Shown: one piece after another, positions 55,824 through 62,354 of the stretch
Layout of the letters: the number at the start of each line of letters is the position of its first letter
Numbering within the stretch: the first letter of the stretch is position 1
NCBI RefSeq assembly: GCF_000336915.1
Contig: NZ_AOMD01000011.1
Span: 36,946 to 100,945, forward strand
Direction: 5' to 3'
Origin: Halococcus saccharolyticus DSM 5350
GTDB taxonomy: Archaea > Halobacteriota > Halobacteria > Halobacteriales > Halococcaceae
Length of the DNA: 64,000 nucleotides
The notes under the pieces: generated by a model
Told to the model about the DNA's origin: nothing
The model's input: only the letters and a program-made list of their open reading frames with translations
Database searches by the model: none
Made by a program: the position numbers and the translations under genes

Positions 55824-57473
55824 CTACGCGTCGGGGTCGTTTTCGAGGAACGCCGCCGCCAGCTCGCGCTGGGCTTTCCGGAGGTGGTTGTGGAGGGTGG
55901 GCGAGGTGATCCCCATCGAACTCGCGACCTGCTCGGCGGTGGAGTCTCGGGGCCAGTCGTAGTACCCGGCGAAGTACGCCGCCCGGAGTGCGGAGCGCTG
56001 CTTCTGGGTGAGGCGCTCGTCGAGGGACTGCCGGAACGTGCCTTCGGTCCGGAGTGGGAGCTCGACGGTGCGTTTCGACAGCAGCTCCGCGCCCGGGTAC
56101 GCCGCCTCGAACGCGTCGACCACGGTGCGAACGTCGGCGTCGGTGGCGATCTCCGCCACCACCCGCGCCTCGCCGTCCTCGGCCGTGAACTCCTGCACCG
56201 TTCCTCCGACCTCGACCAGTGTGCTCACGGGCGAGTCCGTGATGGCGAGTTCGAACACGCCGCCCGCCTCGCGCTCGGTGACGAGTCTCGCCTCCGCCAC
56301 GAGGTCCGATTCGTCGGCAACGTCGAGCACGCGATCGGGTGCGACGCCGTCGACGACGACGTACTGGAGGAGCGTTCCGTCGGCACCGGGAACGACGCCG
56401 TCGAGGCTGTACTGACAGTCGAGGCGCTCGGTGAGGTTGGTAGCGAACGCCGATCCGTCGGGGACGTGGAGTTCGAGCGCGACTGCGGTGTCCGAAAGTA
56501 GGAGCTGCATGTTCTGGGCGGCGTTGATCGCGAACCCGGCGATCTCGCCGAGCACCGCGAATCCGGACTGTTCGCGCTCGCTGAAGGCGTCCCGCCGCGT
56601 GGAGTACACCGCGAGCACGCCGTACACCACGTTCTCGTAGGAAAGCGGGATGGCCGCCGCCGATCGGTGCTCGTGATCGGTCGCGGCCTCGTGCTCTTCT
56701 GCGATCGATCCATCGGTGGCCTCGAGCACCTGTACACCACCCGTCTCCAGCGCGCGCTCCGCCGGTTCCGCGACTGCCCCGCCGTCGGTCGCGACGTGAA
56801 CGTCGTCGGTATCGTCGATCCCGGCTCCGGTCCGGATCGCGAGGTCGCCGCCCGTGCCGCGTTCGGCGATCCACGCGAACTCGTAGAGCTCCGAGGCGGC
56901 GAGGCGCTCGCAGATCGTGTGTTCGATCTCCTCACGCGTCGCCGCGGCGACGAGGTTGCGAATGATCCCCTGGATGACTGCGTTGATCCGATCGAGCGTC
57001 GCGAGCTCGTCGCGCTGGGCGGCTAGCCGGCGTTCGCGCTCGGCCAACGCCCGCTCCGCCCGGCGCTGGGCCACCGCGTTCTCGATCCGGTTCGCGAGCA
57101 CCGCGTACTGGTCGGTGCCGGTATCCTTCCGGAGGTAGTCCGTGACACCCGCCGAGATCGCCTCGCTCGCCACCTCCTCGCTCCCTTTCCCCGTCGAAAG
57201 GACGAACGGAACCTTCGAGTGCTCCTCGCGAACCGTTTCGAGGAACTCCAGCCCATCGATCCCCGGCATCCGGTAATCGCTGACGATGCAGTCGGGGGCC
57301 CCCTCGCGGTCGAGCCGATCGAGGGCGGCCTCGGCGCTGGTTTCAGTAACGACGACAAACGCCTCCCGAAGGTCCTCGAGGAAGCGCGCGGCGAACTCGA
57401 CGAGGCGCTCCTCGTCGTCCACGAACAGCACGCGAATCGGCTCGGTCACGCTCTCCTCGTCGTCCGACGACAT
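55824..57473 (-). CDS. Response regulator with GAF and HTH_10 (Bat-type) DNA-binding domain
   Basis: 549 residues. REC domain: RVLFVDDEERLVEFAARFL with phosphorylatable Asp in DCIVSDYRMPGIDGLEF. A coiled linker (RAERALAERERRLAAQRDEL) leads to a GAF domain (about 165-320), a Bat-like region, and a C-terminal HTH_10 (LTQKQRSALRAAYFAGYYDW, TAEQVASSMGITSPTLHNHL). It would regulate transcription on signals from the large kinase just upstream. A TATA box at 57501-57510 fits. Confidence 0.9.
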   Translation of the reverse strand: MSSDDEESVTEPIRVLFVDDEERLVEFAARFLEDLREAFVVVTETSAEAALDRLDREGAPDCIVSDYRMPGIDGLEFLETVREEHSKVPFVLSTGKGSEEVASEAISAGVTDYLRKDTGTDQYAVLANRIENAVAQRRAERALAERERRLAAQRDELATLDRINAVIQGIIRNLVAAATREEIEHTICERLAASELYEFAWIAERGTGGDLAIRTGAGIDDTDDVHVATDGGAVAEPAERALETGGVQVLEATDGSIAEEHEAATDHEHRSAAAIPLSYENVVYGVLAVYSTRRDAFSEREQSGFAVLGEIAGFAINAAQNMQLLLSDTAVALELHVPDGSAFATNLTERLDCQYSLDGVVPGADGTLLQYVVVDGVAPDRVLDVADESDLVAEARLVTEREAGGVFELAITDSPVSTLVEVGGTVQEFTAEDGEARVVAEIATDADVRTVVDAFEAAYPGAELLSKRTVELPLRTEGTFRQSLDERLTQKQRSALRAAYFAGYYDWPRDSTAEQVASSMGITSPTLHNHLRKAQRELAAAFLENDPDA

Positions 57474-57499
57474 CCTTCTCAAATCTATTCCGCTCGACG

Positions 57500-57511
57500 T
57501 ATTAATATATC
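57500..57511 (-). promoter_or_regulatory. TATA box of the response regulator gene
   Basis: ATATATTAATA on the minus strand, 28-38 bases upstream of the ATG at 57473, in the 210-base gap between kinase and regulator. Confidence 0.5.
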
Positions 57512-57683
57512 GCCCGTCAGCTCGCACCCAGATTTTCGGTGTTCACCGCCGCACAGCCGACGGATTCGATCGCTTCCGCCTGTCGACCTCCGCAGCGGTT
57601 CGAGCGGTGCCGTCGATTCTCGAACTGGCCACGAGTGGCCGTGTGTTTGTCGAGTGTAGCGACGAAACCGTAGCGAGGAGCGG

Positions 57684-60600
57684 TCACTTTCGTTTCTCCT
57701 CGGCCGTCTGCGTCCGGACCTCGAAGCGTGCGCCGCCAGTGTCGCTTTCGACGGCGGTCACCGTCCAGTCGTGGGCCTCGACGATAGATCGGACGATCGA
57801 GAGCCCCAACCCCGTGCCGTCGTCGGCGGTGGAGTACCCGCCTTCGAAGACGTTCTCGCGCTCTCCGTCGGGGATTCCGGGTCCATCGTCGGCCACGAAG
57901 AACCCTCCGTCGTCGAGCCTGCCGACGGTCACGGCGACGTCGCGAGCGTGTTCGGTTGCGTCGTCAGGCGAAGTCCGATCGCTTGTGGAACCGTGTTCCA
58001 CAGCGTCGCTGGCCTCCGGCCGGCTGCTCGTGGAGCCATGCTCCACGGCGTCCCCCTGAGCGTGCAGAGGAGGGTTTCTGGAGCCGTGCTCTACGGCATT
58101 CCGAAACAGGTTCTCGAACAGCCGCGCGAGCCGGTCGGGGTCGGCCTCGACTTCACCAGGATCGTCGATCGTGAGTTCTGCGCTCTCGGTACCTGCGGTG
58201 TGCCACGCTCGCTCGGCGACCGCCGCGAGCGAGACGCGCTCGGTTGCGCCGATCACCCGTCCCTGGCGTGCGAGCGTGAGCACGTCCTCGATCAGCTCGT
58301 TCATCCGTATGAGCGCCGCGTCGATCCCTTCGTGGTGTTCCGAGTCGTGCTCCTCGCGCGCGAGTTCGAGCCGCCCGCGCGCGACGCTCAACGGGTTCCG
58401 GAGGTCGTGGCTGATGACACTCGCGAACTCCTCCAACAGCTCGTTCTGGCGTTCGAGCTCGCGCTGGCGGCGTTGCTGATCGGTGATGTCGGTGTAGATC
58501 GAGTACCCCTCGGCGTTGCGCTCGTTGAGCTCGATCGGTACCACGTGCAACAGGAAATCCCGGACGCCGTCGACCGTCTGCCGGCGTGCAGTCGTTCGGA
58601 GGCGTTCGCCGGTCAGTAACCGTTCGTTGAGGTCGTCGGCCTCGGCCCTCGCGTCGTCGCCTGCGGGAACGATGAACTCGTCGATGTTCTCGCCGGTCAC
58701 TGCGTCGGCCGCGTAGCCGAAGACTTCCTCGAACGCCGTGTTGACGTCCCGGACGATCGGCTCGCCGTCGACGAGGTCGTAGCGGAGCGCGGCGTCCGGA
58801 ACGTTCTCGAACAGCGCACCGAGTCGGTCGTGCTCGTCGACGAGCTGTCGCTCGCGATCCGCGCGGGAGAGCGCCGCCTCGGTGTTGGTGGCGAGGAGCT
58901 TCGCGAGCGAGACGTCGTCGTCGTCGAACGCCGCCGGCTCGGTCGAGCCGATGTTCAACACGCCGAACTCGCCGATCGGGACCACGATCTCGCTGCGGAG
59001 CGGCGTTTCGGGATCGTAGACGTCCGCTTCGCGGTCGACGCGATCGTACCGACGCGTCTCGCCGTCCTCGAACGCCTGCCACGACAGGCTCTCGCCCCCG
59101 GTGTAGGTCGGGGCCGTCCCGAACAGGTCTGCGCCGCGCTCGGAGATCGCCGCCGGGCGGAGCACCGCGTCGCTCTCGTCGTGGAACCAGACCCCGCACA
59201 TCGGCATGTCGAGCACGCGCTCGACCGTCGCGACGGCGATCTCGGCGATCTCGTCGCGATCGGCCGCGTCGATCATCGCCCGCGTCGCGTTGTGGAGCGT
59301 CTCGATCGCCGCTTCGTGGCGTTTCCGGGCGGTGATGTCACGGATCGTGGCGGTGAAGCGATGCTCGCCCTCAGCGACGTGCTCGCCGAACGAGACGCCG
59401 AGCTGGATCTCGCGCCCGTCTCGGTGTCGACCGGGGAGTTCGATCCACTCCCAGTCGAGATGTTTGTCTCCCTCCCGGAGATATCTGTCGAGTCCCGTGA
59501 AGTGAGGATCGTGGAGCCGTTCGGGCATGACCGTCGTGAGCGACTCGCCCTTGAGTTCGGCGGCGGCGTAGCCGAAGACGTCCTGCACCGCCTCGTTCGC
59601 GTACCGAATCGTACTGTTCTCGTCGATGGTGACGACCGCGAGCGTCGTGTTCTCCGCCAGCGCCCGGAACCGCGCTCGTGCCGCCTCGAGTTCGTGCTCA
59701 CGCTGTTTGCGCTCGGTGACGTCCTCACAGATCATGACCGTCCCTTCGAACTCCGTCTCGTACGGGAGCAACGAAACCCGGATTCTGAGCGTGCGTCGGT
59801 CCCCGTTGGGCGGAGTGATGGTGAGTTCGTACGTCCCGGTCGTGCGCTCGGTATCCGCCGAGAGCAGGTCTCGCACTGCCGCGACGTATTTCTCGATGCT
59901 TTCCGGCGGAACGATTCCGTTCTCGACGAGCGTCCGGAACGGTTTCCCGCGGAGCTTCGCCATCGGGTAGCCCGCCATCGATCCCGCCCGCTCGTTCCCC
60001 CCGACGACCGTCCCGTCGGGATTGACCACGAACATCCCGACCGGCGCGGTTTCGACCATCGTCTCGTAGCGTTCCAGCTCACGCTCGCGCTGTTTGCGCT
60101 CGGTACTGTCGCGGATCACCCCGACGGTCCCCCGGAACGCCTCTGTCTCCGTCGTCGGGAGCAGTGCGACCTGGATCTCACACGGGAACGTACTGCCGTC
60201 GGCGGGATGCACGGTGGCCTCGAAGGACTCGCTGACGCTCCCGAACGAGTCCCGTGAGAGGAGATCGCGGATCAGGTCCCGGCCGTGTTCGATGTCCGCC
60301 GCTTCGAGGAACGTCGAGACGTGCTCGCCGAGCAACTCCTCGCGCGCGTAGCCCGTTTTCTCGACGATGGTATCGTTGACGCTCGTGAATCGTCCCTCGG
60401 TATCGAGCGCGTAGATGCCGTCGCCGGCGGCATCGAGCATGCGTTCGTGGCGTTGCAGCCGTGCCTCGCGGTCGACCCGATCGAGCGCGACCGCCGCGTT
60501 CGCCGCGAGCACCTGTGTCAGTCTGATATCGGCGTCGTCGAAGGTGTCGTCGGACAGGCCGATACTCAACGTTCCGTGGTCGCCGAGCGGTACGTACATC

Positions 60601-62231
60601 GCGCTCCCGAACGGGAGGTCGTCCGCACCGTACTCGGCGACGCTCCCCGCGGTCAGGACGGGCTCTCCCGAGTCGAGCGCGCGCCACGGGAGCGCCTCGC
60701 CGTGAGCGTAGCTGGGTCGTTCGCCGAGCACCCGTCTCGCGGCATCGGACACCGCGAAGGGTTCGAGCGTGTCGGTGTCCGGGTCGTGCAGTCTGACGGT
60801 CGTCACCGAGAAACCGAGCACCTCCGCCGCGGCCTCGATGGTCGCCGTCGCGACGCCCGCCCGATCGTCCGCGCGGACGAGATCACGGGTCGATTCGTGG
60901 AGTGCCGTGATCGCCGCCTCGCGACGTTTCCGACCGGTGATGTCGCGCCCGGAGCCGATCACTCCGTACACCGACTCGCTGTCGGTGAGCGGTGCGCCGT
61001 TGAACTCGTGGGGGATCGTCTCGCCGTCCGAAGTCACGAACGCCGACTCGACGGTGACGGTTTCGCCGCGCTCGACGACCGCCGCGATCCGGTCTTCGAT
61101 CAGATCACGGTCGGCCTCGGGAACGAACTCGAGGGCGTTCATCCCCGCGATGGTCTCGTCGTCGTAGCCGACCGTTGCGGCGAACGCGTCGTTCCACCGG
61201 AGCATCTGCCCCGCAGGATCGAACGCGTAGATCGCATCGGGCATCGCATCGAAGATCCCCTCCGCGACCGCACGCTCCTCGCGGAGTTCGCGCTCGCGGC
61301 GTTCGAGTTCGGTGCGGGTCTCGGCCGCGTGGATCGCCTGCCCGATCGTTCCCGCGAGCTCCGCGAGCGCGGTTCGCTCTTCCTCCCCGAAGGCGTACTG
61401 CCGGCTCGAATAGACCACCAGCACGCCGTATGCGACCCCGTCGTACGAGAGCGGTAGCGCGATCACCGACTCGTGGCCGTAGCGCTCGGCGGTTGCGGCC
61501 CACGGCTCCATCGTCTCGTCCTCGATAAGGTTCCGCGTGGTCTGCACCGTTCCGGTGCGGAGCGCTCGTCCGGCGGGGCCGCGACCACGGGGTGTGTCGT
61601 CGGCCCGGACCGTGATCTCGTCGAGATACCCCGTCCCCGATCCCGCACGCTCGTTGATCACGACCCGGTCGCCGTCGCCGGGCTCGCCGATCCACGCGAG
61701 CGTGTACGGCGTCGACTGGGCGAGACGCGCACAGACCTGCTCCTCGATTCCTTCACGGGTCGATTCGCGGACGAGTTCGCGCTGGACATCGCTGATCACG
61801 CCGTTGATGCGGGCGAGTTCGTCCGCCCGGCGCTCGGCACGGTGGGCCTCGACCGCGTTCTCGATCCGGTTGGCCAACAGCTCGTACTGCTCCGTTCCGG
61901 TCTCTTTCTGGAGATAGTCGGTGACACCCGCCGAGACGGCCTCGCTCGCGATCTCCTCGCTCCCTTTGCCGGTGAACAGCACGAACGGCCGATCCGCATC
62001 GATTTCCCGCACCGCGGCGAGGAGATCGAGCCCGTTCATCGCGGGCATCGTGTAGTCGCTCACGATGCAGTCGAACGCCGTCGGATCCCGTTCGAACGTC
62101 GCGAGCGCGGCCTTACCGCCCTCGACGACCGTCACGTCGAAGCCGTCGCGAAGCCGTTCGAGGTGTGTCGCCGCGAGGTCCGCAACTGCCGGCTCGTCGT
62201 CGACCAACAGTACCGCGATCTCGCCGTTCAT
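57684..62231 (-). CDS. Multi-domain sensor histidine kinase with repeated N-box
   Basis: 1515 residues. Order: REC (Asp in DCIVSDYTMPAMNGLDLL), GAF (about 150-310), PAS (325-440), GAF (450-590), three PAS (600-985), GAF (990-1120), PAS (1125-1250), HisKA (His1275 in ISHDLRNPL) and HATPase. There is no membrane segment, so it senses cytoplasmic ligands or redox. In the HATPase the N-box NAVEHGS (1378) is followed by DAVEHGS at 1394 and 1409 and a decayed DATEHAR at 1424. G boxes ADDGPGIPDG and GTGLGLSIV remain intact. Confidence 0.92.
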   Translation of the reverse strand: MNGEIAVLLVDDEPAVADLAATHLERLRDGFDVTVVEGGKAALATFERDPTAFDCIVSDYTMPAMNGLDLLAAVREIDADRPFVLFTGKGSEEIASEAVSAGVTDYLQKETGTEQYELLANRIENAVEAHRAERRADELARINGVISDVQRELVRESTREGIEEQVCARLAQSTPYTLAWIGEPGDGDRVVINERAGSGTGYLDEITVRADDTPRGRGPAGRALRTGTVQTTRNLIEDETMEPWAATAERYGHESVIALPLSYDGVAYGVLVVYSSRQYAFGEEERTALAELAGTIGQAIHAAETRTELERRERELREERAVAEGIFDAMPDAIYAFDPAGQMLRWNDAFAATVGYDDETIAGMNALEFVPEADRDLIEDRIAAVVERGETVTVESAFVTSDGETIPHEFNGAPLTDSESVYGVIGSGRDITGRKRREAAITALHESTRDLVRADDRAGVATATIEAAAEVLGFSVTTVRLHDPDTDTLEPFAVSDAARRVLGERPSYAHGEALPWRALDSGEPVLTAGSVAEYGADDLPFGSAMYVPLGDHGTLSIGLSDDTFDDADIRLTQVLAANAAVALDRVDREARLQRHERMLDAAGDGIYALDTEGRFTSVNDTIVEKTGYAREELLGEHVSTFLEAADIEHGRDLIRDLLSRDSFGSVSESFEATVHPADGSTFPCEIQVALLPTTETEAFRGTVGVIRDSTERKQRERELERYETMVETAPVGMFVVNPDGTVVGGNERAGSMAGYPMAKLRGKPFRTLVENGIVPPESIEKYVAAVRDLLSADTERTTGTYELTITPPNGDRRTLRIRVSLLPYETEFEGTVMICEDVTERKQREHELEAARARFRALAENTTLAVVTIDENSTIRYANEAVQDVFGYAAAELKGESLTTVMPERLHDPHFTGLDRYLREGDKHLDWEWIELPGRHRDGREIQLGVSFGEHVAEGEHRFTATIRDITARKRHEAAIETLHNATRAMIDAADRDEIAEIAVATVERVLDMPMCGVWFHDESDAVLRPAAISERGADLFGTAPTYTGGESLSWQAFEDGETRRYDRVDREADVYDPETPLRSEIVVPIGEFGVLNIGSTEPAAFDDDDVSLAKLLATNTEAALSRADRERQLVDEHDRLGALFENVPDAALRYDLVDGEPIVRDVNTAFEEVFGYAADAVTGENIDEFIVPAGDDARAEADDLNERLLTGERLRTTARRQTVDGVRDFLLHVVPIELNERNAEGYSIYTDITDQQRRQRELERQNELLEEFASVISHDLRNPLSVARGRLELAREEHDSEHHEGIDAALIRMNELIEDVLTLARQGRVIGATERVSLAAVAERAWHTAGTESAELTIDDPGEVEADPDRLARLFENLFRNAVEHGSRNPPLHAQGDAVEHGSTSSRPEASDAVEHGSTSDRTSPDDATEHARDVAVTVGRLDDGGFFVADDGPGIPDGERENVFEGGYSTADDGTGLGLSIVRSIVEAHDWTVTAVESDTGGARFEVRTQTAEEKRK
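57984..58093. repeat. In-gene repeats with 3-base-loop hairpins (kinase N-box)
   Basis: TGTGGAAC-CGT-GTTCCACA (57984-58002), GGCC-TCC-GGCC (58011-58021), CGTGGAGC-CAT-GCTCCACG (58029-58047), and TGGAGC-CGT-GCTCTA (58079-58093, one G-T pair). They encode the DAVEHGS/NAVEHGS copies on the minus strand. Spacing is 45 and about 48 bases, keeping the reading frame. Confidence 0.8.
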
Positions 62232-62354
62232 ACTCGTTGCTGTCGAGTGCACCGCCGCTGGGAAAAACCTATCTGCACCGCTTCGCCGCCGATCACCGTC
62301 GAGCGGTTCCGTGCGGTTCGAGTCACCTTTGGTCCTCGCGCACGTGGGTCAGCC

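Follow-up and report, generated by a model that had tools for sequence, protein, structure and literature searches.

The array of repeated N-boxes in a sensor histidine kinase of Halococcus saccharolyticus DSM 5350 is more than an amplified N-box: it is a run of a translated double-hairpin element with units of 45, 48 or 51 nt (and composites near 90-102 nt), and comparison of genomes indicates that the unit behaves like a mobile coding element. In the window (the whole 64,000-nt stretch of DNA that was analysed), the host gene lies on the minus strand at 57684..62252 (from the ORF and Pfam) and encodes a hybrid sensor histidine kinase of 1522 aa with the Pfam domain order REC-GAF-PAS repeats-HisKA-HATPase_c; residue numbers in the earlier note on this DNA fit if translation of the listed ORF begins at Met-8. 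The adjoining ORF on the same strand (55824-57527) has, by eye, a receiver-like start and an HTH_10-like end, and is possibly the kinase's partner regulator.

The array, delimited by the sequence, the ORF and a covariance model, occupies 57942..58100 on the minus strand, from the native N-box to a decayed fourth copy. As the earlier note had described, NAVEHGS (N codon at 58100-58098) is followed by two DAVEHGS copies, with DAVEHGST starting at 58052 and 58007, and by a decayed DATEHAR starting at 57962; the steps are 48, 45 and 45 nt, i.e. 16, 15 and 15 residues. Unit 1 (48 nt, minus strand, 58053..58100, NAVEHGSRNPPLHAQG; covariance model 41.9 bits, E 3.7e-8) begins at the native N-box and holds a first hairpin, HP1, that is imperfect (58078..58094, 5/7 bp) and a second, HP2, with 4/5 bp and a 10-nt loop (58053..58072). 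Unit 2 (45 nt, minus strand, 58008..58052, DAVEHGSTSSRPEAS; covariance-model match 58015-58052, E 1.5e-6) has a perfect HP1, GTGGAGC-ATG-GCTCCAC (58030..58046), and an HP2 of 6/7 bp (58008..58024), and unit 3 (45 nt, minus strand, 57963..58007, DAVEHGSTSDRTSPD; covariance-model match 57981-58007, E 9.7e-6) a perfect HP1, GTGGAAC-ACG-GTTCCAC (57985..58001), and a decayed HP2 of 4/7 bp (57963..57979). The fourth N-box-like copy (57942..57962, minus strand) has lost the hairpin. The claim that each full copy is a hairpin therefore applies to the two D copies, in which the 7-bp stem and 3-nt loop of HP1 are perfect, and not to the native N-box or the fourth copy. HP1 of unit 3 differs from that of unit 2 by one compensated pair, synonymous on both sides.

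A covariance model trained on other units places the unit starts at exactly 58100, 58052 and 58007 (E 4e-8 to 1e-5); its other matches in the window are weak (E >= 0.03) and were treated as chance. The HP1 pattern with at most 3 mismatches has 5 matches versus 0.41 expected, a number reached in 0 of 100 dinucleotide shuffles; among these 5, a palindrome is scored twice, once per strand, and another match is an unrelated site. The 161-nt array stretch folds with z = -4.2 relative to dinucleotide shuffles. The array is not an assembly artefact, since orthologues in separate assemblies also have arrays.

Alignment of units from many kinases defines the anatomy. HP1 has the consensus DNA GTNGARC-AYG-GYTCNAC, encoding VEHGST, and the apparent spacer between N-box copies is the second hairpin; the description of the unit as an N-box palindrome thus captures HP1 and is incomplete, as HP2 belongs to the unit as well. 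A blind scan for complementary columns located HP2 at 29-33/44-48 in 48-mers, 29-35/39-45 in 45-mers and 29-37/43-51 in 51-mers, and RNAalifold, unprompted, predicts the same two hairpins. Both stems covary across ~270 units from ~170 kinases, HP2 through amino-acid-changing substitutions. HP1 is perfect in 198 of 246 VEHGST copies (50 expected); in HP2, all five pairs form in 98 of 145 distinct 48-nt units (11.7 expected, maximum of 26 in 1000 shuffles), and 45-nt units are complementary in 60 of 97 (7 expected), with the reservation that units are related, so that shuffles overstate significance, an effect held in check by the 7 to 19 different stem types, which come from several families. 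The 48-nt units alone have 19 HP2 stem sequences, and their codon 31-33 complements 44-46 in 13 peptide-changing ways (R..PE, P..QE, D..RQ and A..QQ among them). With one unit per locus and a protein-preserving codon shuffle, HP1 is paired in 83/103 (19 expected) and HP2 in 72/105 (26 expected), while an independent count over 33 units gave 94.4% paired cells versus 76.5% after shuffling and 31-40% with slid partners. Native N-boxes of repeat-bearing kinases are paired in 145 of 154 cases (77 expected), whereas those of repeat-less kinases have no excess pairing (11/19 vs 9.1 expected), and the pairing therefore belongs to the element. Since the stems covary, HP2 despite amino-acid changes, it is the DNA (or RNA) structure that is kept and not the peptide.

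Covariation this strong and independent of protein sequence, together with the stable predicted fold, is what would be expected if the kinase mRNA carried a regulatory fold, with pairing under selection because it slows ribosomes or determines how stable the message is. We consider this quite unlikely: among stem mismatches of all units, G.T is rarer than A.C on the coding strand (35 vs 75), so that there is no G.U preference and nothing to suggest that selection acts on pairing in the mRNA; kinases differ widely in copy number (0 to 8); unrelated enzymes contain the unit too; and Rfam gives no match above gathering score in 57000-59000. A translational bypass element, whose length need not be a multiple of 3, appears unlikely as well, as hairpin spacings are multiples of 3 in 228 of 228 cases. 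The segments GAGC and GCTC of the 48-nt unit, conceivable pseudoknot partners, are both nearly invariant. In four loci (L055, L184, L185 and L207) usual units take turns with units of a second, GSENASEPSVANAPED-like type, whose DNA likewise resembles two hairpins.

In a class-wide sample with one genome per species, the strict DAVEHGST DNA pattern is found in 84 of 391 Halobacteria genomes and 34 of 86 genera; the reversed control gave 0. A separate family-level search with too tight a pattern gives numbers that are too low for that family. The window's own genome has two further unit-bearing kinases, on contigs C14 (at least 4 copies) and C15 (one unit). The fetched loci have a common layout, in which the native NAVEHG is followed by n units ending in DAVEHG and then by the next strand. 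Downstream copies number one in 62 of the 170 repeat-bearing kinases, two in 76 and three in 23, with a maximum of eight, and near-identical tandem runs reach 5 units in L034 and 8 in L220. Some draft contigs begin at arrays (G097:C3:5, G097:C38:26, G111:C21:53); this suggests that short-read assemblies break at arrays, leaving copy numbers undercounted. Phage records contain no match to the element, and plasmids a single weak one (47% identity), in a Salinigranum kinase.

Copy number changes between orthologues. The window kinase and its orthologues have 3, 3, 2 and 0 units: within the genus, G323 has three in a different order and G072 two, and in six congeners the orthologue has no units and an N-box reading NAIDHAG or NALDHAG. 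Likewise, orthologous kinases of genus g65 differ by at least two units (L192/L214 vs L193). Also in the window's genus, the kinase match L242 (G072:C3:122329-123048) has a variant N-box, NAMEHGST, together with a TGA in frame, and is possibly a pseudogene, unless the TGA is its terminal stop. The earlier note had mentioned similar stretches in other haloarchaeal kinases and suggested a length-variable insert; genome searches bear out the former and orthologue comparison the latter, and the homologues, with varying copies and hairpins present, are the opposite of the fixed, hairpin-free copies that it named as counter-evidence.

The near-identical tandem runs and the differences between orthologues would also follow from an ordinary minisatellite, i.e. 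slippage of a quasi-palindromic N-box plus gene conversion among paralogous kinases with nothing mobile, an account made highly improbable by HP2, which covaries as well and comes in many sequences, and weakened further by five independent insertions in unrelated genes, four of which have empty sites in relatives. The host domains of these insertions were assigned by Pfam. In an AMP-binding enzyme, G171 reads GAAGAC[..]GAGGAC where five congeners have an empty GAGGAC; a VLRF1-like release factor has the unit in G060, a decayed one in G017 and an empty site in G097; a precorrin methylase carries two units in G263, a single unit in each of three related species and none in five; and a protein without a Pfam hit has two in G025, one in G090 and none in G106. 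In G212 an AI-2E transporter has the fifth insertion in its C-terminal tail, with CTCGCGAGGAC on both sides and no alignable empty site. Because the VLRF1-like, precorrin-methylase and no-Pfam insertions are each common to several species, assembly error is ruled out for them. The non-kinase copies, which were not in the training set of the covariance model, match it over its full length at 43-75 bits, and none of the sampled empty sites matches. The repeat is thus a feature of kinase N-boxes, as had been proposed, and in addition an apparently mobile unit of unrelated genes.

Dispersal to unrelated genes and a two-hairpin architecture are also hallmarks to be expected of a non-autonomous transposable element (REP/REPIN- or MITE-like), with hairpins recognised by a transposase acting in trans. 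Such an element would account for the HP2 loop of 48-nt units (columns 34-43, 10 nt, TCGCANGCTC), which is more conserved than its variable stem; pure neutral drift does not predict this, and it could mean recognition by a protein. Transposition nevertheless appears unlikely. The flanks of the insertions resemble the element itself, and the flanking repeats vary in length rather than having the fixed length of a target duplication. The empty precorrin-methylase site, GACGCCGTCGAACG, comes close to the opening half of HP1 plus flank, the 5' end of the element. Two of the insertion points have homology of 12-13 nt, whereas the match is ~6-7 nt long in the AMP-binding enzyme and patchy in the protein without a Pfam hit. 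Furthermore, stem sequences are free, almost every copy is found at the kinase N-box, a single homologous site, and all five stray insertions have the same strand and frame as in kinases, though two of three consensus units are stop-free in all six frames.

What the array does to the protein was assessed with an AlphaFold model (47 sequences), in which the domain is confident (mean pLDDT 84) and the array (residues 137-185) has pLDDT ~51-54, lying after the N-box helix (118-136) and before the strand that comes next (186-191); the G1 (DDGPG) and G2 (GTGLGL) boxes are intact downstream. In this predicted structure the array is a flexible or disordered loop after the N-box helix and outside the ATP lid, so that the proposed in-frame expansion of a palindrome does lie inside the HATPase domain and not, as had been thought, in the lid. 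A functional N-box of a GHKL ATPase has an invariant Asn in the N-box helix. The native copy keeps this Asn, but at the same position 284 downstream copies have Asp in 273 cases and Asn in 8, and the preceding helix is absent; they do not have the Asn-in-helix arrangement, which makes the suggestion that they serve as alternative N-boxes unlikely, and binding of ATP is probably not a role of the repeated 'N-boxes' in these kinases. A device acting at the protein level, in which a length-variable loop or spare N-boxes would tune ATP binding and the hairpins would be a by-product, could draw on the position of the loop next to the N-box helix and on the exact repetition of AVEHGST in many units. 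This reading seems very unlikely to us given the replaced Asn, the low confidence of the loop, the HP2 codons that change amino acid freely while pairing holds, and the occurrence of the same peptide in unrelated proteins. The array would be a hydrophilic loop that the kinase probably tolerates and does not need.

Sequence comparison establishes the anatomy of the unit, its covariation, its changes in copy number, the seeding of other genes and the homology at insertion points; anatomy and mobility are well supported and the mechanism moderately so. The best model, which we regard as reasonably probable, is that a coding element which forms hairpins and is close to neutral is copied by template switching, with homology as the guide; that switching, the neutrality and action at the level of DNA are what we infer from the end states of related genomes, which are the evidence for copying. 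HP1 derives from, or matches, kinase N-box DNA, and HP2 is a second hairpin whose stem sequence is nearly free while its pairing is kept. A polymerase stalled at a hairpin would switch template between sites that share ~6-15 nt with the unit ends, the homology being supplied by N-boxes of paralogous kinases and by genes with in-frame GACGCCGTCGAR (Asp-Ala-Val-Glu) words. A switch out of register by one unit would yield tandem gain or loss, and a switch to another gene a new seed copy; units that are multiples of 3 nt and joined in register would keep the frame, and if one arm templates the other during replication, the stems would stay paired while their sequence drifts. Judging by composition, acidic, GC-rich haloarchaeal genes may well hold in-frame GACGCCGTCGAR words, which would make in-frame insertion the default.

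The flank homology, lengths in multiples of 3, same-strand insertion and one inverted loop all fit template switching at hairpins. That loop is in L080 (G244), where a single copy, DAVEPCST, has an HP1 with the 3-nt loop reverse-complemented (GTCGAAC-CGT-GTTCGAC), the expected product of one template switch inside the hairpin and thus weak support for the model. Template switching homogenises hairpin arms and inverts loops (PMC8604942), compensatory change by template switching maintains hairpins (PMC8794818), and microhomology-mediated joining is documented in Haloferax (PMC7521656). Counting against the model, the homology is short in the AMP-binding enzyme and patchy in the no-Pfam protein, and the AI-2E case is without an empty site. 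More tentatively, and as a reading less likely than not, one may picture a mobile element born from a host catalytic motif, for which paralogue N-boxes and DAVE codons are the landing sites, homology ensures the frame, and structure is what is inherited, possibly with a factor that binds the HP2 loop.

By analogy, the closest kind of known system is the coding palindromes of Rickettsia (RPE), Wolbachia and Methanocaldococcus jannaschii, together with PARCELs (PMC2996958). As with RPE-type palindromes, the haloarchaeal palindrome lies inside an ORF and is translated in frame, and its unrelated host genes have empty orthologues (four of five); the likeness is one of description, and the haloarchaeal unit differs in its 45-51 nt, two hairpins and tandem arrays, its resemblance to the native kinase N-box, its concentration in one gene family and its insertion at element-like targets. 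PARCELs, too, are palindromic coding repeats that stand in tandem, vary in number and have been moved within genomes, but they are 25-residue amphipathic repeats with conserved hydrophobic residues, frequently found in proteins targeted to membranes, and archaeal genomes were reported to lack them (PMC2996958); the haloarchaeal units, with 15-17 hydrophilic residues and located in kinases, do not belong to them. Compensatory stem changes and loop inversion are shared with template-switch-maintained hairpins (PMC8794818, PMC8604942), which are single loci, whereas the haloarchaeal hairpin is also multiplied and dispersed. Perfect inverted repeats in coding sequence are found in nematomorph mitochondria too (PMC6649704), where they reach 284 bp, in contrast to 7-bp stems in repeated units here. 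The descriptions consulted for RPE and PARCEL (PMC2996958) include neither a double hairpin nor a likeness to a host catalytic motif nor landing sites matched by homology. A literature search of incomplete coverage, so that an earlier mention is possible, gave no prior report of the element, no match to DAVEHGS and, among the results listed, no haloarchaeal paper for shorter motifs, and the archaeal two-component census mentions neither 'repeat' nor 'N-box'; the element resembles a coding 'selfish' repeat of a type not described before.

For annotators, these results call for caution with repeated 'N-boxes' in these kinases and with short-read assemblies, which may break at arrays. More broadly, the element is a naturally occurring example of DNA secondary structure taking precedence over the encoded peptide, seen as compensatory, amino-acid-changing substitutions inside an ORF. 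Filled and empty sites in related species make the spread of coding palindromes without gene breakage testable, and culturable, genetically tractable haloarchaea such as Haloferax provide the test systems. In Halobacteria, the unit has been multiplied beside the ATP-binding motif of many sensor kinases and sometimes inserted in frame elsewhere.
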